From the NCBI GenBank assembly GCA_001630475.1, contig KV419397.1:379758-443757 (forward strand): a DNA stretch of 64,000 bases, in the 5' to 3' direction. Shown here piece by piece: positions 35,542 to 62,465 of this stretch. Position numbers and translations under genes: made by a program. Numbering within the stretch: the stretch's first letter is position 1; each line of letters starts with the position of its first letter. The notes below the pieces were generated by a model, which saw only the letters and a program-made list of their open reading frames with translations, was not told where the DNA came from and searched no databases. The DNA comes from Sistotremastrum niveocremeum HHB9708 (taxonomy: Eukaryota > Basidiomycota > Agaricomycetes > Sistotremastrales > Sistotremastraceae).

Positions 35542-36296
35542 ATGCATACTTCCATTCTTCTGTCACTCTTCTTTGTCTTCTGCTCCACTGTAGCTGGCCT
35601 CTCTCCGGGAACGTACTTTATACAGAACGTCAATTTCCCGAGCTGGCGAATCAGCACTGTCTCTCCCTCGGCAGCAGGGCAACAGGGTACACCTCTGGAT
35701 GTTTTCGTCGTGAGTTGGCACAAGTTGCATAACTTGGTGGAGCGTGTTGTCTGAGGATGGCCCAGGCACCCATAGGAACCCAAGTTTTTGCCGAAGACAT
35801 AGTGAGTCGCATCCAAGCCTTATCTTTCTCGAAGCCGAATGCTGGCAATAGTTCACGGTCAATTCTGCGATGACAACACTGTTTGCAGAAGCGATCCAAC
35901 AGTTTGCGGTAGTCGATTTGGCAGATGGTGGTCCGCAAGCAGGATTGGGAGTTTGGATGTCGAATACGTTCACGCCACAACCACCTTTCCAAGCTATAGG
36001 ATCGCAAGCATGGGAATTTATTCAGGAGTCTAATGGGATGGTGTGAGTTACTGCCACATGTCTTCTTCGTGAGCTTTTTTGGATTCAATATGGGTTTCTC
36101 CAGGATATTGCTTCAAGGAACCGACCTTGTTTGGACTATGCAGGCTGAGTCTATTGCAACCCAGGTAGCTATGGGTTTTCTCCGTAATATCGGGTCCTTG
36201 TTGATCGCCCGACATCGATATCAGATTACGCTCCAACCTTCAAACCCGGCGGATCTTCGTCAACAGTGGACCTTTGTTGCGCATGCACTAGTGTAG
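35542..36296 (+). CDS. Secreted beta-trefoil-like (ricin-B-like) protein, array member 1
   Basis: Exons 35542..35709, 35766..35801, 35852..36042, 36104..36164 and 36225..36296 give 175 residues. Signal peptide: a hydrophobic N-terminus (LLSLFFVFC) ending near TVAG. The mature start LSPGTYFIQNVNFPSWRIS matches the first strand pair of ricin-B-like beta-trefoils. Trp motifs recur at QAWEF, DLVWTM and RQQWTF, in keeping with a threefold fold. The second exon is only 36 bases (APIGTQVFAEDI), one codon shorter than in other members, and in phase 0. Fold assignment is inference. The usual activity of such secreted fungal proteins is glycan binding or protease inhibition. Confidence 0.78.
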
Positions 36297-36613
36297 AGCG
36301 TGATGTCAGGGACAGAATATAGCGTGAGGGAAATTTGGGAAAGATTTCGTGATCTTGGCCCAGTTGACACAGTATATTCAGCCAGATTGGGAGAATGTCC
36401 AATGATCAGTCGCAAAGGGGATATTTATAGTGTAGATACCAAGTCGAATTCGGATCGCCTTCATATTCTTTGCATGGCAGATACACTTTATGGTTGAGAA
36501 CTCACGAGGGGGTATAATATGTACGCTGGCTGAACTTCAACAAGATGAGTCAAGTTGAAGTAAGCTTAGTCAGCCATACTGGACTTGGCTTCTCCTAACA
36601 TCTCGTCACCTTC

Positions 36614-37732
36614 ATGGCTCTCGAGGCACAGACAATCCATTCTCATTACTCTCCACCAGTTCGACCAAACATTGAGCTGCTGACCTCTGATGCTTCGCCC
36701 GATGAAGTTTGGAGAATTGAGACTGCGCGTGCCGACCGCCGCCCACCCCCACGATTTGTACCCGCTGTCTTGTCCTACGACGAATACGGTCTCGTAATCG
36801 GTAATCAAGACGCCTTAGAAGAAACAAAGAAGTCTATTGAGGATGGGGAGGTACAAGAAATCGCCATAAATGTAGGCGATTGGTACCGAAATCTGCGTAA
36901 ATCACTACCTGACCCTGACATTCAAATCATTCCAAATCCCAACCTCAGACAACATAAATCTTCGACTTCGTCTCTAAACTCCTTACCATCCCATCCCTCT
37001 TCTTCCAAACATTCCAGTCGCCAGAACTGGTTTTCATCAGCCAGTGTGCCGGTGACTCCCTCTCCAGTTGTTGAGTCTATCGCAGACTTGTTACAGCGCA
37101 ATCCGCCTCTCAAACATGGGAAACCATTTAGGCCACCAGTGCATCTGGGCATTGGTCCGTCGAACAAGGGTTACGAAATGCTTTCGAAGAGCGGCTGGAG
37201 GGAAGGGGAGGGGCTTGGGTTTCGAGTCGGTCTCGGAGCCAAGAAGAGAAATGTCTCATCCGTCCTGCACAGTCAATCCACTCCCAACCTGCCGAGCTTA
37301 TCGTCCTCTGCGCCTCTCAAGAGGGAACATCGAGATTCCGACGACGAAACTGGGTTCATTGATCTCACTTTATCTGACTCGGATCATGAGCCAAATGATA
37401 GTGAAGACGTGCGCTCCAGTGACGAAGAATCATCTGGGCCTACGACTCTACCCTCTGGTGGCGTCTCACTCCTCACTCCTATCCCGACTACTCTCAAGGC
37501 AGATCGGCGTGGTATAGGACTCGGGGGATCCTATATCACAACGCCCTCTGGCATACGGATTCCGCAGCGCCGTGTCACGCACGGAAAAAAGGCTCTTCGG
37601 GGGCATTTGAAGCAGCATGAAGAAAGTCAACGAAGGAAAGAGCGGTTCGGGCGAGGCAGTCGCGGGTTTGATAAAATTCAAAAGCATGATTCACAAGAAC
37701 GGACCAACCTCATTGCATACATGAATTCGTGA
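36614..37732 (+). CDS. G-patch domain protein
   Basis: A single-exon gene of 372 residues. The G-patch lies near 180-205 (NKGYEMLSKSGWREGEGLGF) and continues after an acidic Ser/Asp insert (DETGFIDLTLSDSD) with PIPTTLKADRRGIGLGG, the conserved end of this G-patch type. The N-terminus has a conserved-looking RFVPAVLSYDEYG and the C-terminus is basic (RRKERFGRG). G-patch proteins activate DEAH-box RNA helicases; the exact partner here is unknown. It is a housekeeping-type gene sitting between members 1 and 2 of the secreted-protein array. Confidence 0.85.
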   Translation: MALEAQTIHSHYSPPVRPNIELLTSDASPDEVWRIETARADRRPPPRFVPAVLSYDEYGLVIGNQDALEETKKSIEDGEVQEIAINVGDWYRNLRKSLPDPDIQIIPNPNLRQHKSSTSSLNSLPSHPSSSKHSSRQNWFSSASVPVTPSPVVESIADLLQRNPPLKHGKPFRPPVHLGIGPSNKGYEMLSKSGWREGEGLGFRVGLGAKKRNVSSVLHSQSTPNLPSLSSSAPLKREHRDSDDETGFIDLTLSDSDHEPNDSEDVRSSDEESSGPTTLPSGGVSLLTPIPTTLKADRRGIGLGGSYITTPSGIRIPQRRVTHGKKALRGHLKQHEESQRRKERFGRGSRGFDKIQKHDSQERTNLIAYMNS

Positions 37733-38600
37733 TGTCACTTGTCTCCCATCTCAGACCAAATGATCTGTATATGTTGCTGAAGCTTCCAGTTATCCTAGAC
37801 TGCTGTACTATATCTATACGTAATATAATGAAGTCCCAAGTAATTGTTTGAACGAAAGTTTTTCCCCCCGTTCTGTCGAGGCGCTTATCTGCTTGCCTTT
37901 CAACCACAACGCCAGAAAGCTCATTGTAGTGACAGGTCGACGCAGCATATTAGATTCACGTTCAGAAGGAAGTACTAAACGATCGTCTGCAACAACGGAA
38001 GCATCAGCTATCAAAAGTCCTCAATGTTACTAATCTCATGAGTCGTTCCGAATTTGCGTCGCAGGCAGTCGAGGTCATCCAGTGCAGGTCGAATTTACCA
38101 CCACAGTCTTGTGACGACGTTAACTCCCTCGACCTGCTAGTCAACCCGAAAAGCTATTTTGTTCACTATGCGATGTCTGTCACCGAGCACTGGCGAAAGA
38201 ATATCACTTACTGTCGATGGTTTCGGATCTGCATACGAGGCTGCCTCTTGCCAGCTGCGCTTTCCACGCTTTCAACTTGAAGGCGTACGGTGGTATTCAC
38301 CTCGACCATTGATCCCTCAGCATGACTGCCGAACATGTGGTACAGATCCTACCCCATTGACTTTCCCAAGACTCTCACAGTGCGAAGAATTATGACGATC
38401 GCCTTCCAAGCGAACCCAAGTCCATCTATCCCAGAACGTGCATGAACTCCTAATGGCTAGCCGCTTATCCCCCGACCCCTGAAACCTCACGTCTCTCACG
38501 TCTAACACGAGCTTTTAGGAGATCACAGCGTTTCTGTGAAGCAGTTCACTCAGCTTATAACCCTGAGCTACTCTCATTCTACGACGCCGTTCCTCAAACA
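37733..38600. other. Intergenic region upstream of array member 2
   Basis: No gene supported. Short frames lack domains. A TTATAACC at about 38554 lies roughly 45 bases before the ATG of member 2. Confidence 0.4.
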
Positions 38601-39357
38601 ATGCTGTCTCGCGCGATCGGTTTAGTCGCTCTCCTAGTCCCAACAGCCTTGGCAACTTTGGCGCCAGGAAGTTATGTGGTACAAAATGTCAATTTTCCTG
38701 ACTGGCGCATCAGTGCGGGCCCCGGGGGTGGTCAGCCTTTTGGGGCGGAAGGTGGTGTTGTCCCCACTTTCTTAGTGAGCCTGATGCCTTGGCTAGCTTG
38801 AGAAGTGTCTGATGGATTCGACTGGACGACTAGCTTCCTTTCCCCTCGGCGCCTGTGATCAGCAATCACGTCGTGAGCTCCTTCTCCGAACATTTCAAGT
38901 CGTCGAATTGATGAGATCTGTCAGTTTACCATAGATTCAACAATGACGCGCATCGTCAACGAGGCTTCTGGGCAATTCTGTGTCGTCGACTTGCTTACGG
39001 GCGGCTTCGGGGCGCAGGCTGGTATAGGTCTCATCCTCGCTAATTCGACCACGCAAGTCCCTCCGTTTGTGCCTTTGGGCAATCAAGCATGGCAGTTTAT
39101 CCAGGCTTCGGAAGGCATGGTGTCAGTAGATGTCTACCTCATACGCTCGTGATGCGCAAGCTAATGGTTGAAAAGTGTTTTGTTAGAGGGAACAGACCTT
39201 GTATGGTCACAGCAAGCCGTAGGTTTAGGCACTCAGGTGAGCTAAAATGATTTATGGGCCTCAAACACTCATGGTTGGTTCGCAGATCACACTTCAACCA
39301 TCAAACCCCGCCGATTTACGCCAACAATGGACTTTCATCGCACATGGCCCGGTTTAG
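38601..39357 (+). CDS. Secreted beta-trefoil-like protein, array member 2
   Basis: Exons 38601..38774, 38834..38872, 38925..39121, 39176..39236 and 39286..39357 give 180 residues. Signal peptide about 1-20 (ALVPTALAT region); mature start LAPGSYVVQNVNFPDWRIS. The 39-base microexon reads LPFPSAPVISNHV. Later landmarks are FTIDSTMTRIV, GNQAWQFIQ, LLEGTDLVW and the closing ITLQPSNPADLRQQWTF. Exon phases equal those of the other members. Exon 3 is two codons longer than in member 1. Confidence 0.8.
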
Positions 39358-40465
39358 ATTGGAAGCGATGTCAAGGCGGCGTCGTGAATGTGCAATCCAT
39401 GCACATGAGGAGCTTTCTGGATGATCCTGTTATCGGTTTTCGACTGCTAACAATAAATGGATTAAATTATCTCTGTACAATGTTGTCTTGAGCTTGGGAA
39501 ATTCCTGGCTCGTGACGCGACGAGCGCTGCGTCGGCTAACAATTTGAAACTCTGACGGATGTTTACTTGCTCGCTGCGTCCACCAATAGCTTGCACCATA
39601 ATCTCATACTCAGTATACACCGAAGCGCCCTTCCCATCGCCCTCGCGTGCGTGTGGACTGGAATGTCGCCTCATGAATATCAATTCTCGGGCGCGGCCAG
39701 ACTAGGACACGATCGGCGGCGCAACACGTTACACAACAGTTCTGATGTCCATTGCTCCGTCCCCAATATAACCTGGAGTTTGTACGGGATTGAAAGCCCA
39801 AATATGTGCGTCTGATCAAGCCACACTCTATACTTGGTGTTATGATCATGAGAGCTCTTCATGGGAGCCGCCCCAAGTCGACCTGGTCCCCGTCTTACGC
39901 CGCTAGCTCACAATCAATCTTGGACACGCCTGTCATTCCACGAGACGTGTACTGCCGAGGTGAGTGTATCGGGTGTCTCGACATGTCAGTTATTATCTAA
40001 AGGCAATTCATGTCAGTCTCATTATTTCCAGGCTTTCAGTTCAATGCCGCATCAGCTATTGACCTCCAAATCTTGACTGGCATCGGCAAGACGTTTTCAT
40101 GTCCTGTGCGACCTCCTGCGATACTTCAGGGCCTCAAGACCCCAAGCTTTGGACTCCCAGCCGATCTGAGAGTGGAAGAGATATGAGCTATGGCCACTTG
40201 CGTCATGCCGGTATGCTCTCTCAGGTCCCACTGTGAGAGGGCCTTTCTCACCCTTTCGTCGTCGCTACAGTAACGCCACGCGATGTCTTCGCTCTAGAAA
40301 GGGTCACTCCGATCCCACTTCTCCAAATGTTCAGGGACCATCCGGCCGACGCATACCCATTCATCCGCCTTGCCGCGCACGATCTTTTGGATCCTTTGTC
40401 AAAATCAGGACAGCTTAAAACCCAAGCATTTGGGCTGACCCAGTCTACTCCAAGTCCTGCAAGTA
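39358..40465. other. Intergenic region upstream of array member 3
   Basis: About 1.1 kb with no supported gene. Frames on both strands are short and unlinked. Confidence 0.4.
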
Positions 40466-41241
40466 ATGCTGTCATCCGCTTTACATCTGCCTGCTGTGTT
40501 TCTGCTCGCGGCTTCTTCGGCCTTGGCTTCTCTCTCTCCCGGCAGTTATTTTATTCAAAATGTCAACACTCCCGATCAAAGAGTGTTAGCGGGCTCTTCT
40601 GCGGGCGTTGCATTACCCCAGGAGGGCTCGCCCATCGTAACATTCAATGTCAGTGCTCCCTTCAAGTTACTGAGGACACTCAGTACATTAACCGCGTGCA
40701 ATTTCGTCAGACACCATTTCCCCAGGACCCGCCTATCTCTAACCATATAGTCAGCACCTTCTCGCTGACTTAGGATGTCTCATCATTTTTCAATTTAGTT
40801 TACCATTGATTCTACCATGACTACAATGTTCCACGAAGAAACCCAGCAATTTGCTGTGGTTGACGCCGCGACCGTGGGGCCTGCAGCCGGCCTTGGTGTC
40901 ATGCTTTGCAACACCACCACACCCGTGGCTCCGTTCACCCCTATCGGCCCGCAAGGCTGGCAGTTCGTTCAAGGAAGCAATGGAATGGTGTACGTTGATA
41001 GTTCGATGCGACAGTGAGCTTTGGCCGAGAAAGATTTCTTGACTATAGAATTCAATTCCGCGATACCGATCTCGTTTGGAGTCTTGAAGCCGTTGGCTTT
41101 GGGACGCAGGTAAGACTTCGTTCATTTTCCGTGAACTTGCTTAATCACTAAGCATCTTACATTCTATAGATCACGCTACAAAACTCTAATCCGAGTGATC
41201 TTCGACAGCAATGGAGTTTCATCCCTCATAGTCTTGTGTAA
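40466..41241 (+). CDS. Secreted beta-trefoil-like protein, array member 3
   Basis: Exons 40466..40648, 40711..40749, 40799..40989, 41049..41109 and 41170..41241 give 181 residues. Signal peptide: LHLPAVFLLAASSALA, then SLSPGSYFIQNVNTPDQRV. The microexon reads TPFPQDPPISNHI. Core strands: TQQFAVVDA, GLGVMLCNTT (possible N-glycosylation site), GWQFVQGSNGMV, RDTDLVWSL. The end is ITLQNSNPSDLRQQWSF. Only one cysteine is left after signal cleavage, so the fold would not rest on disulfides. Its 3' flank is partly repeated beyond member 4. Confidence 0.82.
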
Positions 41242-41800
41242 GGTTCCTCAGCTACATCCGCTAACGTCAAGGATGCTGCCTTGTGGCTCGAACGAGAGGA
41301 CTGAGCTTCCTTGGCATACACTTGTATCTATGTTGGTTTTCAAAGGAACTTCCATCATCGAAAGTAGCCACTTGGCTACTTGGGAAAAGAACGAGTCACT
41401 TCCCGGGTCTTTGAAACTCTAAAGCAAATCTGCCACACTGCGCTATGAGTTCTCTGGAAGCATGCTTATGGATCACAGTCAAGCCTTACGCCTCTCTTTA
41501 TCCACTGAATTGGAAGTCATGAGAGGATTCGCACGACATCCATACCCGAGACTGACTTTCATCGTGGCTGTCATACTCCTGAAGGGGGTAACTATCTATC
41601 AATGTCTCATGGACTGCGAAATGTGGCCTGCCGCTCGCCGCTGTGAGACCTATCTTTGCCAGAGAAAGAAAATTGCCTGGTATCCAAGTTAGTCCAACCT
41701 TGCGGGACTCTCGTATAAATACTCGACAGCCGTGCAAGAAGACGGTCCACTCTCTATTATTGGAGGATACTGAAGGACTGCACACCCCAAGTCACGAAAT
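41242..41800. repeat. Left copy of a duplicated intergenic block
   Basis: This block resembles 42944-43662. Matching pairs are AGGACTGAG(C/T)TTC near 41299 and 43164; AGCAAATCTGC(C/A)ACAC near 41423 and 43302; (C/T)TTACGCCTCTCT and CACTGAATTGGAA near 41487-41515 and 43382-43410; and GGGGGTAACTATC then ATCAATGTCTCA near 41584 and 43459. It supplies the promoters of members 4 and 6. Confidence 0.7.
41714..41721 (+). promoter_or_regulatory. TATA box of array member 4
   Basis: TATAAATA lies 80 bases before the ATG. The duplicated promoter of member 6 has the same octamer at 43583-43590 at the same spacing. Confidence 0.6.
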
Positions 41801-42543
41801 ATGTTTCACGTCACATTTGCCTGCCTCGTGTTGTCTCTCGTTCCTTCCGTTTTCCCTTCGCTTTCTCCAGGATCTTACTTCATCCAAAATGTGGGCTTCG
41901 CCACGCAACGAGTGTTCACCGACCAGACTCCTACCGAAGTTTTACCTCAACAAGGAATTGTAGTGTTCACGACAAACGTGAGCTCACGAAGATCCATGCC
42001 ACTTTCTCATATCTTACGAGTGGATCTATCCTAGTCTCCGTTTCCGCAAGACCAAGTGCTTTCGGAACATATCGTGAGTGCAATGTATCAAGGTCTGAAC
42101 TGACATGGTTCTGAGTACCATTTATGCCCAGTTCACGGTCGAAGGCGGAACTGTCTTCGCCGAAACGGCTCAGCAATTCATTGTTGTGGATGCCCATGAA
42201 GGCGGAACAGCGGGTTCTGGTCTCATCCTATGCAATACAACAGATCCGGTCCCCCCATTCAATCCGATTGGCAATTCGGCATGGCAATTTGTCCAAGGAT
42301 CGCAAGGAATGAAGTCAGAACGGGCATGCTTTATCCGATGTCATCCCACTCATTTCCTCTCAGTGTTTTCTTAGAAAATACTAATCTTGTTTGGGCAATA
42401 CAGTCTACTGCTTTTGCGACACAGGTCAGGCTTTCTGGCATGACGATATTCACAGAGTTGACGTCGGACAGATCACCATTCAAACGTTTGACTCGTCTGA
42501 TCTACGACAGCAATGGAACTTCATCGCACATGGGCTTGTATGA
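41801..42543 (+). CDS. Secreted beta-trefoil-like protein, array member 4
   Basis: Exons 41801..41977, 42035..42073, 42132..42313, 42364..42424 and 42472..42543 give 176 residues. Signal peptide: FACLVLSLVPSVFPS, then LSPGSYFIQNVGFATQRV. The microexon reads SPFPQDQVLSEHI. Core: GTVFAETAQQFIVVDAH, GLILCNTTDP, SAWQFVQGSQGM, LENTNLVWAI, and a diverged end ITIQTFDSSDLRQQWNF. Exon 3 is three codons shorter than in member 3, and exon 3 ends in AA rather than GT, changing the joint Val to Asn. It is the parent or sibling of the frameshifted member 6. Confidence 0.82.
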
Positions 42544-42734
42544 GGCGCTGTACACTGATAGTGAAAGTCAGAGCATGGGAGTCCAAAGTCCATTGTATGT
42601 GTAGAGAATACAGAACAATATATGAAAGTCCCCAAAAACGTCAGCTCATGAAGTAGCGATTTAGATGACTTCCGGGAATGGGACCCTCAACGCAAATGAT
42701 GACCCAGATTGATCGAATATTAAGCTCACGAGTC

Positions 42735-42945
42735 CAGAATTCGATTGCGCCTGAAAGGCTTGGAGGCTTTAGCGCTTGAAGCTTGAAGCCGTCGGCCTGG
42801 GAAAAGCAGGTGTTGTAACTTGAAGGCAATATTTCTCCTACTCCGAAACTGACTTGTCATTTCCTTATTCTTCATGTCGTATTACAAACTTCAATCCAAG
42901 TGATCTCCGAGAGGAATGGGATTTAATACCTCATTATAAGGTCAA
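42735..42945 (+). pseudogene. Remnant of an array member (exon 4-5 relic)
   Basis: Two pieces match member 3. One resembles exon 4 (AGAATTCGATTGCGCCTG at about 42736, then GCTTGAAGCCGTCGGCCTGG before a CAGGT). The other resembles exon 5 (ATTACAAACTTCAATCCAAG at 42881, then TGATCTCCGAGAGGAATGGG). Reading frames are interrupted and exons 1-3 are absent. It marks the left edge of the duplicated segment that ends with member 6. Confidence 0.65.
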
Positions 42946-43662
42946 CCCTGTGACCCTGCGTCGTCCGGCGGACGAAGAGACGACCATGCCTCGAGACTCG
43001 GACTCCTCACGTGCGCACTCTCTTGATGCCTTTTCTTTGACCTCCACGGACCTCATACGACCAGACATACAAGGTCCCCATAACGGTGTAGGCTCGGTCA
43101 CTGACCTCTACTGGCCGCCTGAACTCCTGGCCCGGGTGCTGCGCCGTTGCGGTTCGCGTGAAAGGACTGAGTTTCGCTGGCAAGCTGCCCGGTCCCTGTA
43201 CCTGTGTCGATCTTCGAGGTTTTGAATCCGGGAGACCATCGATATCCAAATCAGCCACTGGGAAAGAGGACAACTTAATCCGCAGGCTTGTGGAACTGTC
43301 GAGCAAATCTGCAACACGTAATATGCTGCTTGCCAGTGAGGTGCTCTGATGGGACGGCACAACCAGGAATCACGGCCAACCTTTACGCCTCTCTCGATCC
43401 ACTGAATTGGAAATCATGAGAATATTCACACAACATCATCGTGGCTGTCATAGTCCCTAAGGGGGTAACTATCCATCAATGTCTCAAGGACCACGGACAG
43501 TGACCTGCCGTCTGCCGTCTGCCTTAGCCTATTTTTATCGAAGAAAGAGAACTGCCCCATCTTCGGCCTCACAGAACTCGCGTATAAATATTAAGGAGCG
43601 GTTGGTGCAAAACGACGATTGACTCGCTTACACTGGACCGTATTGATCTCTACACACGAATT
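42946..43662. repeat. Right copy of the duplicated intergenic block
   Basis: Diverged copy of 41242-41800 (matches listed there), with several small insertions and deletions, including loss of about 25 bases near 43425. It ends with TATAAATA at 43583-43590 and an ATG at 43663. Confidence 0.65.
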
Positions 43663-44414
43663 ATGTTTCCAGGAATCGCATCCGCCTGCCTGCCTTGCCC
43701 TGTCTCTTATTTCTCACATTTCTGCTTCAATTTCTCCGGGGTCTTACTTCATTCAAAATGTGGGCTTCGCTTCGCAGCGAGTGTTCGCCGATGGAACTCC
43801 TACTGAAGTACTACCTCAAGAGGGAGTGGTGGTCATCACGACAAACGTAAGCCGCCCTCTGAGCGATGATGTATCCATACCTTAACATCGCCGATCCTGT
43901 AGGTAGACCAAGTGCTTTCGGAACATATCGTACGGACAACTCACATGTATTAAAGCCGCTAGCGTTCGAACTGACGTGGTTTTTCCGCCATTCGTGTGCA
44001 GTTCACAGTCGAAGGCGGAACTGTCTTCGCCGAAACGGCTCAGCAATTCATTGTTGTGGATGCTCATGAAGGCGGAACAGCGGGTGCTGGTCTCTTCCTA
44101 TGCAATACAACAGATCCGGTCGCCCCATTCAATCCGATTGGTAACTCGGCATGGCAATTTGTTCAAGGATCACAAGGAATGAAGTCAGAGCAGAACCACC
44201 TCATTTGACACCATCCCACTCATATTTTGCCAGCGTTTTCTTGGAGAATACTAATCTGGTTTGGACAATACAATCGACCGCCATTGCAACGCAGGTCAGG
44301 TTTTCCAGACAGTACAACAGCCAACAAATTGACCTCGAATAGATTGCCATTCAAACGTTCGACTCCTCTAATTTAGGGCAGCAATGGAACTTCGTCGCAC
44401 ATGACCTTGTATAA
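43663..44414 (+). pseudogene. Frameshifted beta-trefoil-like gene, array member 6
   Basis: The exon plan equals member 4 (43663..43846, 43903..43929, 44002..44183, 44234..44294, 44343..44414), and exons 3-5 are nearly identical to it. In the signal-peptide region a four-base TGCC repeat (GCCTGCCTGCC against one fewer unit) shifts the frame, so the ATG at 43663 no longer reads into SISPGSYFIQNVGFASQRV. No other in-frame ATG exists. The microexon is 27 bases (VDQVLSEHI), 12 shorter than in member 4. Exon 5 has NLGQQW in place of DLRQQW. Either a recent pseudogene or a base-calling error; everything after the shift is open. Confidence 0.7.
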
Positions 44415-44580: not shown

Positions 44581-46080
44581 TCATCGACGAATTTTTCGCA
44601 ATGCGGCATCTGCCATACGCAGTATTCGCCCTTGTGGACGAGCCCATCTGTCATACTTAGACTGATAGTTGAACTCAAGCACCGGAGGGCTCCATGCTGG
44701 TGGAAATTTGAGAACGCATTCAGCTTCCGAAAATCGATACTCACCGGCAGGAACGGACTCAATTTGTAATTTGATCCCGCGTCTTCGGCATTTCTCTTTC
44801 AGACAAGAACACAACAAAGATAACATCCCGAGATCGGTTCTGTGACCGGCAAAGGGCCAACTCAAATCGATCCGTTTTATCGAGCAATGTGGGGTGGCAA
44901 CATCGTCAATGAATTTAGATAAGCTGCCCAAAATTTCCAGTGTTTCGTAGGGCGCTGGTCTCCGAGTTGAGAAACGGATCACAAGGGTATGCATGGATGG
45001 GGGGAATTGTTCTGCTCGCAATAGATGGCACGAATCGCTGATGAAGATCTCCAAGATCTCCAAAGACTCCAGCTGCACAAGAGCGTTTCGATGGAATCGA
45101 AATCCTCTCATGGAATCCAGAGAAAGAAATCGAAGATTGCCATAGTGTGTCTTCCAGTCCATTGTGTGGCCAATCCACGGAAACGGCCGCCAACCTAGCC
45201 CATCGAAGAAGAACCGCGTCTCCTCCACAAATATATTATGGAGTTCCACTGGGCCCAGCAGATGACTGAACACCAGGTCAAAGACGGCTTGAGGAAAGGC
45301 ACATTTCCGAAGAATGAGTGTGCTCAGGTTTGGGCAATACATATGCCAAAAATAATGATGTTTAGATTCAGGTGGGTGGGTAACGGGTAGCCAAGGCGGG
45401 ACGGATATGCCATCCAAAATAATCGTTTCAAGTGCCGGAAGGGAAACGGGCGCGAACATTGGAAATGCATCATGATTGTAGTCCGGTAACGTCAATGTCA
45501 AACAACGCAACTGGGCAAGTAGTTGCGTATTGAAGACGTCAGCCGGCTGGAAAGAAGGGACTATTCGGCCTAGCGACAAACTGCATTGAACTTGTATACG
45601 ATCCACCCGCTTGCAACGCTTGCTCAGCGTATCGATAGCTTGCATCAGCTCTAGGTAATCATTCTTGGACATTCTGGCGACCTGTTCGCGCTGATGCAAG
45701 CCGTCCAGATAGACCATTTGAGTTCGCCAGGAGGGTCCCGGAAGGAAAGGGTAGCATAAAAATGGGCGATACACCTGTCGAACAAGATTGGACAGTTGTG
45801 GACTATGGGTGATAGTGCGGAGGAGTAGATGAAGGCATTTGGTGGAAGTCGGCTCGATAATTTGATAGAGGAAAGCGTTCGCCGATGCGTTCCAATGTCG
45901 CGAAACTAGGGAGGCAGAATACAAAGTGCTTCTGCACGACGAACCCTGTTGGACAACGCGTTCAAAAATTTGCGCCAGCACTTCTTCGGGCAGAGTCTGA
46001 TCAGTATGCTCGAACATTGGTCGGGGTTGTGTTTGACTGGGCATACGATTCCTACGAAGAGTAGGAACTTGAAAGCCCAT
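44581..46080 (-). CDS. F-box protein (499 residues)
   Basis: A single open frame. The start chosen is the ATG at 46080 (MGFQVPTLRR); a second ATG at 46044 (MPSQTQPRP) is possible. The F-box is at about residues 27-75: LPEEVLAQIFERVVQQG, then YSASLVSRHWNASANAFLY. The rest shows leucine-rich-repeat-like periodicity (LRCLTLTLPD, LETIILDGIS, LSTLILRKC, LESLEILEIFIS), as in the large agaricomycete F-box/LRR families that recruit substrates to SCF ubiquitin ligases. Substrate unknown. It is tail-to-tail with the secreted-protein array. Confidence 0.85.
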   Translation of the reverse strand: MGFQVPTLRRNRMPSQTQPRPMFEHTDQTLPEEVLAQIFERVVQQGSSCRSTLYSASLVSRHWNASANAFLYQIIEPTSTKCLHLLLRTITHSPQLSNLVRQVYRPFLCYPFLPGPSWRTQMVYLDGLHQREQVARMSKNDYLELMQAIDTLSKRCKRVDRIQVQCSLSLGRIVPSFQPADVFNTQLLAQLRCLTLTLPDYNHDAFPMFAPVSLPALETIILDGISVPPWLPVTHPPESKHHYFWHMYCPNLSTLILRKCAFPQAVFDLVFSHLLGPVELHNIFVEETRFFFDGLGWRPFPWIGHTMDWKTHYGNLRFLSLDSMRGFRFHRNALVQLESLEILEIFISDSCHLLRAEQFPPSMHTLVIRFSTRRPAPYETLEILGSLSKFIDDVATPHCSIKRIDLSWPFAGHRTDLGMLSLLCSCLKEKCRRRGIKLQIESVPAGEYRFSEAECVLKFPPAWSPPVLEFNYQSKYDRWARPQGRILRMADAALRKIRR

Positions 46081-60876: not shown

Positions 60877-62465
60877 CTATAGGATACACAAAGAGGAGAG
60901 GAGAAGGATAACAATACACGAGAACCCAGTATATGACAAGGAGAGTGAGTGATACAACGAGGGAGCTGCTGATGATGCCAATGCAAGAGGAGAAGGTGTG
61001 GATGATCCGGTAGCAAGAGAACCAGGCTCAGCTACGGGTGTCTTGGAAGTCTCAGTCGAACATGGTGGTTCAGACTCGTCATCTCCATCGAATCCAGTCG
61101 CACTGCGGATAGAGTCGAGGAGGATGTCTTTGGAATCACCGCCGGCCTCCCACATGGAAAAGCCACGAAGCCCGGTGTTCACGATGAAGTCACCTTTGGC
61201 GGCGAATGCCTGGGCGCTATCGTAGGCAACCATGATCTGGCTTTTGGGGTTGTAGACGAAGTCGGTTTGACTGCATTCGTCGAAAATGTGGTCCATGCCA
61301 GGAGCGACGGAGCCGTTGGCCTGGAGGAAGCCGTTCTGAACCAATCCCCAGAATTCGTATTCACCACCGGCAGGCTGTTGGACACCACACTGGTCGGGTC
61401 CACCCTGGTTATTCCAAGAATCACCAGGAGGGGGGTTTGACTTGTCGAAAGGTGGGTAGAGGGCGAGAGCGCCGGACGAAGTGAGGGCATTTTGGTTCGA
61501 GACAGTGAAAGAATGGCCGTAAGAGGCGACACCGAGAACGATTTGGTGGGCGGGGATACCAGCGGCGGTCCATGCATTGACGGCGCTGACGGCTGAGCCA
61601 ATTTGATCGTGAGCGGGAGCGCATGTGTCGTTAAGAGGAGCGTTGGGACCGACAGTGTCAGTCCAACTGCCGAAGACGTCATAATTCATGATCTCGATGA
61701 AGTCCAGGACGCTAGCGAAACCTGAGACATCGGTGGAAGGGGAACCGGTTCCATCGGCGAAAGGTTTGACGCTGACGGCGGCGGACAAGGTGAGATTGGC
61801 ACCCTTGGGAGTGGCACGCAATTGTTTCAAGAAGGTCAAGAAATTTGCAGTATCGTCAGGATTGACAACGTTACAGCCAATGCCTTGAAGGCCAGGATAT
61901 TCCCAACTAAGGACGATTGATGAGCACGGGTAAAAGAAAGACCAGAAACGGTACTCACTCAAAGTCAAACCCGTCAAGGTTGTATTTGGACTGGAGGGCG
62001 AGGAGAGAGTTGGCGAAGGCGGTCCGGTTGGCAGCAGAACCAACGGCATACGAGTAGCTCTGAGAGCCACCCCAGCCGCCAACGGCTAGGCGCGCCTCAA
62101 CACTATTCTTGTGGGCCAATGAAACGAACTGGGTCAAAAGGGTAGCATCCGAGTCCTCGAGCGCAACATGGGCGTCATCATCGGTGGTTATACTGTCAAC
62201 AACAAGTGTTAGTCTCCGCGCAACTCAGGGCATATCACCAGGCCACTTACGCAAAGGAATAGACAACGGAAGTGTACTTTTCCCAACTGAGATCGTTCAA
62301 ACCGAATACAGGGTTGTCTTGGGTGCTGGCATGCCACCCGGCGAACCAAGTCGATGCGACCATTTCGACAGAGTCACCCATGGCACGGGAGGCTAACTCT
62401 CGAGAGCCAAGGTAAGAAGGAGATGCAAGAGCCAATGCAGGGAAGAGCAATAATGAAGAAAGCAT
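60877..62465 (-). CDS. Secreted GH18 chitinase, probably GPI-anchored
   Basis: Exons complement(60877..61906, 61959..62192, 62251..62465) give 492 residues. Signal peptide MLSSLLLFPALALA. The GH18 barrel shows SVEARLAVGGWGGS and the catalytic DGFDFDWE signature (about 145-152, proton-donor Glu152), which is completed only after splicing. Further on come FIEIMNYDVFGSW, VLGVASYGHSF and RGFSMWEAGGDS. After the domain, a Ser/Thr/Pro-rich linker (TPVAEPGSLATGSSTPSP) leads to a hydrophobic tail (FSCIVILLLSSLCIL), the layout of a GPI-anchor signal. It would hydrolyse chitin at the cell wall during growth or autolysis. Confidence 0.92.

Follow-up and report, generated by a model that had tools for sequence, protein, structure and literature searches.

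A single-locus tandem array of lysine-free small proteins, possibly secreted and divergent beta-trefoils, in Sistotremastrum niveocremeum

The window analysed here is a 64,000-nucleotide stretch of the Sistotremastrum niveocremeum HHB9708 genome (contig KV419397.1, C4:379758-443757 of an assembly of 34.7 Mb in 111 contigs), and it carries six related loci, all on the plus strand between positions 35542 and 44414, that form a tandem array of genes for small proteins. Our leading interpretation, to which we give a probability of about 0.45, is that these loci make up an old family, confined to one place in the genome of a ligninolytic agaricomycete, whose acidic, lysine-free products, each of about 17 kDa, would be secreted and would adopt a divergent beta-trefoil fold of the ricin-B/CCL2-like kind. 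As a best guess at function, the proteins would bind glycans or proteins outside the cell in defence or competition. The array itself is real: an earlier note, made from the DNA letters alone, had described four intact genes of 175-181 residues, one frameshifted copy and one relic, and spliced gene models, a reading of all three frames and tblastn bear this description out. The loci, together with an unrelated gene that lies among them, are as follows.

35542..36296 (+), g1, intact, 175 residues; exons 35542-35709, 35766-35801, 35852-36042, 36104-36164, 36225-36296; spliced model with GT..AG introns
38601..39357 (+), g2, intact, 180 residues; exons 38601-38774, 38834-38872, 38925-39121, 39176-39236, 39286-39357; spliced model with GT..AG introns
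40466..41241 (+), g3, intact, 181 residues; exons 40466-40648, 40711-40749, 40799-40989, 41049-41109, 41170-41241; spliced model with GT..AG introns
41801..42543 (+), g4, intact, 176 residues; exons 41801-41977, 42035-42073, 42132-42313, 42364-42424, 42472-42543; spliced model with GT..AG introns
42780..42940 (+), relic closest to g3; a stretch near 42780 that by eye resembles exon 4, and exon 5 (42881-42934), found by tblastn with g3 (E 4e-4)
43663..44414 (+), g5, broken copy closest to g4; three-frame reading, pieces matched to g4 by tblastn, exon 2 by eye
36599..37732 (+), open reading frame (ORF) of an unrelated G-patch protein, within the array between g1 and g2; PF01585, E 1.9e-8

The intact genes were spliced by hand, guided by conservation among the copies and without the use of transcripts. 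Each has five exons, with four intron positions in common (phases 0, 0, 2 and 0), introns of 47-62 bases bounded by GT..AG, and a mini-exon, 36-39 bases long, as the second exon. Any two of the four products are 47.6-55.2% identical (159-181 residues aligned; E 1e-44 to 2e-63, far beyond chance). The earlier claim of small proteins expanded in tandem stands, with the broken copy and the relic as further members. The closing LRQQW motif that had been noticed is likewise present in the intact genes. In g5 the motif reads LGQQW, the candidate ATG is out of frame with the SPGSYFIQNV stretch, and exon 2, by eye, is shorter than that of g4. TATAAA boxes stand at 41714-41719 and 43583-43588, 80-87 bases upstream of the ATG of g4 and g5; no TATA[AT]A occurs in the 200 bases upstream of g1, g2 or g3.

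All detected copies lie at this single locus. Searches of the organism's own genome with g3, g4 and g2 returned 17, 18 and 17 exon matches, every one within the array on C4, and no copy appeared elsewhere in the 34.7 Mb with these three queries (g1 was not among them, and only first-pass candidates were scored); such searches could miss distant copies split by introns. Within the window, we discounted a minus-strand match to g2 at 45722-45775 (E 0.013), which falls inside an F-box ORF, along with all other tblastn matches beyond the array (E 0.16 to 9). Farther afield, 19 stretches in prokaryote contigs (84,980 species) and 70 in IMG/VR fitted a pattern, and none was confirmed as a relative.

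The paralogues are old, because synonymous sites among g1-g4 are saturated, and for the same reason no ratio of nonsynonymous to synonymous divergence (dN/dS) is given for these pairs. The more recent pair, g4 and g5, shows that constraint acted on exons 3-5: across 103 codons dS is 0.35, dN is 0.05 and dN/dS is 0.13. Most of this divergence arose under constraint, and thus the breakage of g5 looks later than the duplication. When the same comparison (42132-42543 against 44002-44411) is divided by exon, dS is 0.15 in exon 3, 1.46 in exon 4 and 0.50 in exon 5, a hint, from few sites, that gene conversion may have acted in exon 3.

The most unusual property of the array proteins is their total lack of lysine. 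The four full-length products together contain 0 lysines and 11 arginines in 712 residues. Taken by eye to start at LSPG or LAPG, the mature proteins are 156-161 residues long, with isoelectric points of 4.05-4.35, 2-3 arginines and 0-1 cysteine, in keeping with the few cysteines reported earlier. Seven neighbouring ORFs, hand-picked for comparison, contain 2.0-6.3% lysine. The lowest of them is a chitinase-type GH18 ORF close to the end of the window (60877-62085 on the minus strand; PF00704, E 1.4e-32), with 2.0% lysine and 1.5% arginine, and lysine depletion may therefore be partly common to secreted proteins here. The signal peptides previously proposed agree with the N-termini of all four proteins, which, judged by eye rather than by a prediction program, are hydrophobic over about 19-22 residues, and on this ground the products of g1-g4 are probably secreted. 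The glycosylation sequon N-x-S/T occurs once each in g2, g3 and g4.

A beta-trefoil, the fold suggested in the earlier note, is in our judgement the likely architecture of these proteins, and the argument for it is one of agreement among weak signals. Trefoil-family models match two of the four proteins below threshold: g3 aligns with the CCL2-like model (E 0.048-0.067; mature residues 62-151 of 159 to profile positions 34-127 of 127) and with RicinB_lectin_2 (E 0.078), and g1 with RicinB_lectin_2 (E 0.080) and Ricin_B_lectin (E 0.087). Across Pfam runs the values for g1 and g3 were 0.075-0.095 for RicinB_lectin_2 and 0.087-0.11 for Ricin_B_lectin. Neither a trefoil model nor the Toxin_R_bind_N model matched any of ten control sequences (eight shuffles and two reversals), two of which had a match of some kind. 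In g1, g2 and g3 there are two QxW motifs separated by 45 residues, and in g4 there is one; both this spacing and the mature length suit a trefoil. Finally, the last third of the proteins (R3) aligns with two lobes of the genome's one clear ricin-B domain (L001, C64:25577-25888, with typical QxW lobes) at a score that 0 of 200 column shuffles reach, with an hhalign probability of 8%. A separate, short match below the cut-off, with a GYFLIKS start, lies at C14:524452-524550 (L020); neither locus was retrieved by the array proteins.

Several results weigh against a ricin-B-like trefoil. No Pfam model passes its cut-off for any of the four proteins and, in line with the earlier note, no named family was matched above threshold; for PF00652 and PF14200, with cut-offs of 29 and 25.6 bits, g1 and g3 score 13.1-14.2 bits and g2 and g4 have no match. 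Indeed g2 matches no Pfam model at all, and g4 no trefoil model. The first and middle thirds (R1 and R2) do not match the ricin-B lobes, their scores being reached by 166 and 78 of 200 shuffles, and when the whole profile is aligned with the genome's ricin-B domain the last segment alone aligns, at a probability of 2.8%. Internal repeats are also weak by hhalign: 107 (R1/R2), 14 (R1/R3) and 3 (R2/R3) of 150 shuffles reach the observed score. By thirds, QxW is found in the last of all four proteins (QQW), in the middle of three (QAW or QGW) and in the first of none, and thus not in each lobe. The proposal that three Trp-centred segments represent the three lobes proved wrong, because the tryptophans common to g1-g4 are 20 and 25 residues apart (W128, W148 and W173 in g3) and all fall in the C-terminal half. 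Searches of the PDB with the profile and two single sequences gave 1, 2 and 4 matches at E 0.27-1.6, which we take as chance, as we do three NCBIfam families that each match one member at E 0.077-0.24. A model of exon 3 alone, built with five sequences, was poor (mean predicted local distance difference test score, pLDDT, 55.7; five short strands), and its eight Foldseek matches (best E 4.0) include no trefoil and nothing credible.

One alternative, which we consider unlikely, is that the proteins adopt some other secreted all-beta fold of small size, with an LRQQW end that is like a ricin-B lobe through chance. It would account for the match of the last segment alone, for the weak internal symmetry and for the sub-threshold level of every family match, among which Toxin_R_bind_N, a domain of a different fold from the trefoil, appears in three of the four proteins and outscores all trefoil models in g4 (E 0.0013 at residues 111-152, where 18.9 bits fall short of the cut-off of 23.8) and g1 (E 0.040), with g3 at E 0.18. 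We judge this match to be fortuitous, a chance likeness in the last segment that the paralogues have in common, and set aside a DUF2944 match in g4 (E 0.011) likewise. The trefoil is preferred over Toxin_R_bind_N because three trefoil-type models agree, each matching g1 or g3 and none of the controls, and because size and motif spacing fit.

The fungal lectins CCL1 and CCL2 (PF21595) are a close comparison by description. They are like the array proteins in size; CCL2 departs from QxW in one lobe, where it has YxW, and the array too is incomplete in QxW (PMC3355094). Membership was nevertheless rejected: the match in g3 reaches 14.2 bits, about half the cut-off of 27, with none in g1, g2 or g4; the LPxxYVW signature proposed in PMC3355094 for CCL2-like lectins is present in none of the four proteins; and CCL2 is described there as having neither a signal sequence nor an N-glycosylation site, unlike the array proteins with their probable export and, in g2, g3 and g4, their N-x-S/T sites.

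In regard to function, the model we favour, a secreted binding protein, would work as follows. Each array protein would be exported, as its hydrophobic N-terminus suggests by eye; variable loops would then attach to a glycan or glycoprotein on the surface of a competitor, a microbe or a feeder; and the paralogues might cover different targets, the target itself being a guess. For the link between secretion and the recognition of non-self glycans or proteins, this model draws on the probable fold together with the proposal that secreted fungal effectors face microbial competitors and stored ones animals, made in a paper that also describes fruiting-body lectins as commonly lacking a signal sequence and acting when eaten (PMC6272156). 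Lectins of the beta-trefoil type are raised in a mycoparasitic mushroom (PMC8510539). Five Coprinopsis cinerea loci annotated as 'Ricin B-fold' with a predicted signal peptide (CC1G_07937, 11246, 05246, 08066 and 15739) stand among tissue-specific defence loci, two with higher expression in primordia and three in mycelium (PMC4082614). These proteins resemble ours in coming from a mushroom, in carrying a signal peptide and in having a ricin-B fold by the authors' annotation, a likeness of description and not of sequence. Mushroom proteins annotated as Ricin B-fold and bearing a predicted signal peptide have thus been published before, and proteins of this kind are known. Judged by titles and the starts of abstracts, the literature matches listed included neither a tandem array of secreted trefoils nor a trefoil free of lysine, which is not proof of absence.

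The Ecp32 family of Dothideomycetes, which are ascomycete plant pathogens, offers another comparison by description: it is secreted, multi-membered and predicted to be beta-trefoil, with none to five cysteines, and differs from the array in its ascomycete origin and in having 0-2 introns (PMC9493481). Most of its members elicit plant cell death (PMC9493481), a role we do not claim for the array.

The main functional rival to binding is protease inhibition, in which secreted beta-trefoil inhibitors of the mycocypin, cospin or cocaprin type would occlude, with a loop, the active site of a protease belonging to a competitor, a feeder or the fungus itself. We regard it as improbable, although it would share the likely fold and suits small, acidic proteins with too few cysteines for disulphides. 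Cocaprins, which inhibit cysteine and aspartic proteases, provide a parallel: they are proteins of 15 kDa whose trefoil domain is of the ricin type, encoded by three genes in tandem within 4 kb (PMC9104457). This likeness, too, is one of description, and cocaprins are reported in PMC9104457 to have no signal peptide and to be predicted cytoplasmic, a trait that the array proteins, with hydrophobic N-termini in all four by eye, probably do not share; cospins are also listed without one (SignalP 'N', PMC4082614). Membership in the mycocypin family (Inhibitor_I48), to whose inhibitors the earlier note had likened the pattern, found no support, since neither it nor I66 (cospins) matched any of the four proteins at E up to 10, nor the genome at E up to 1, where controls were silent too and the negative is correspondingly weak. 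Moreover, with 0 lysines and 2-3 arginines in the mature proteins, the inhibitory residue of a trypsin-type inhibitor would have to be one of those few arginines.

Two further possibilities seem remoter. The proteins may be secreted lectins of the wall or matrix with a developmental or structural role of the fungus's own, such as hyphal adhesion or fruiting, rather than a part in defence; the signal-peptide-bearing CC1G_15739 does have counterparts in Schizophyllum and Laccaria in a table of conserved fruiting transcription (PMC4082614), but a broken copy and a relic would be more expected at a changing interface than in genes with a core role, and we hold this to be quite unlikely. There is also a slim chance that they form a separate secreted beta-trefoil family from which selection has excluded lysine, with a binding site unlike those of CCL2 and ricin-B, in which case the loss might, for example, protect the proteins from trypsin-like and Lys-specific proteases, whether extracellular or in the gut of a feeder, or let them avoid being tagged with ubiquitin once a target cell has taken them up.

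The wider genome fits a ligninolytic agaricomycete: PF11895, the extension of class II peroxidases, has 24 exon matches in it, and STE3 pheromone receptors have 25, the latter all in C13 and C35; a search of the genome for hydrophobins was silent, and its controls were equally so.

If the fold is shared, the array would belong, as a branch that has had little study, to fungal binding proteins already known and would not be a new kind of system. Its lysine-free composition is unusual beside that of its neighbours and easy to test. Furthermore, a clean secreted tandem family would let the hypothesis of secreted versus stored effectors (PMC6272156) be tested.

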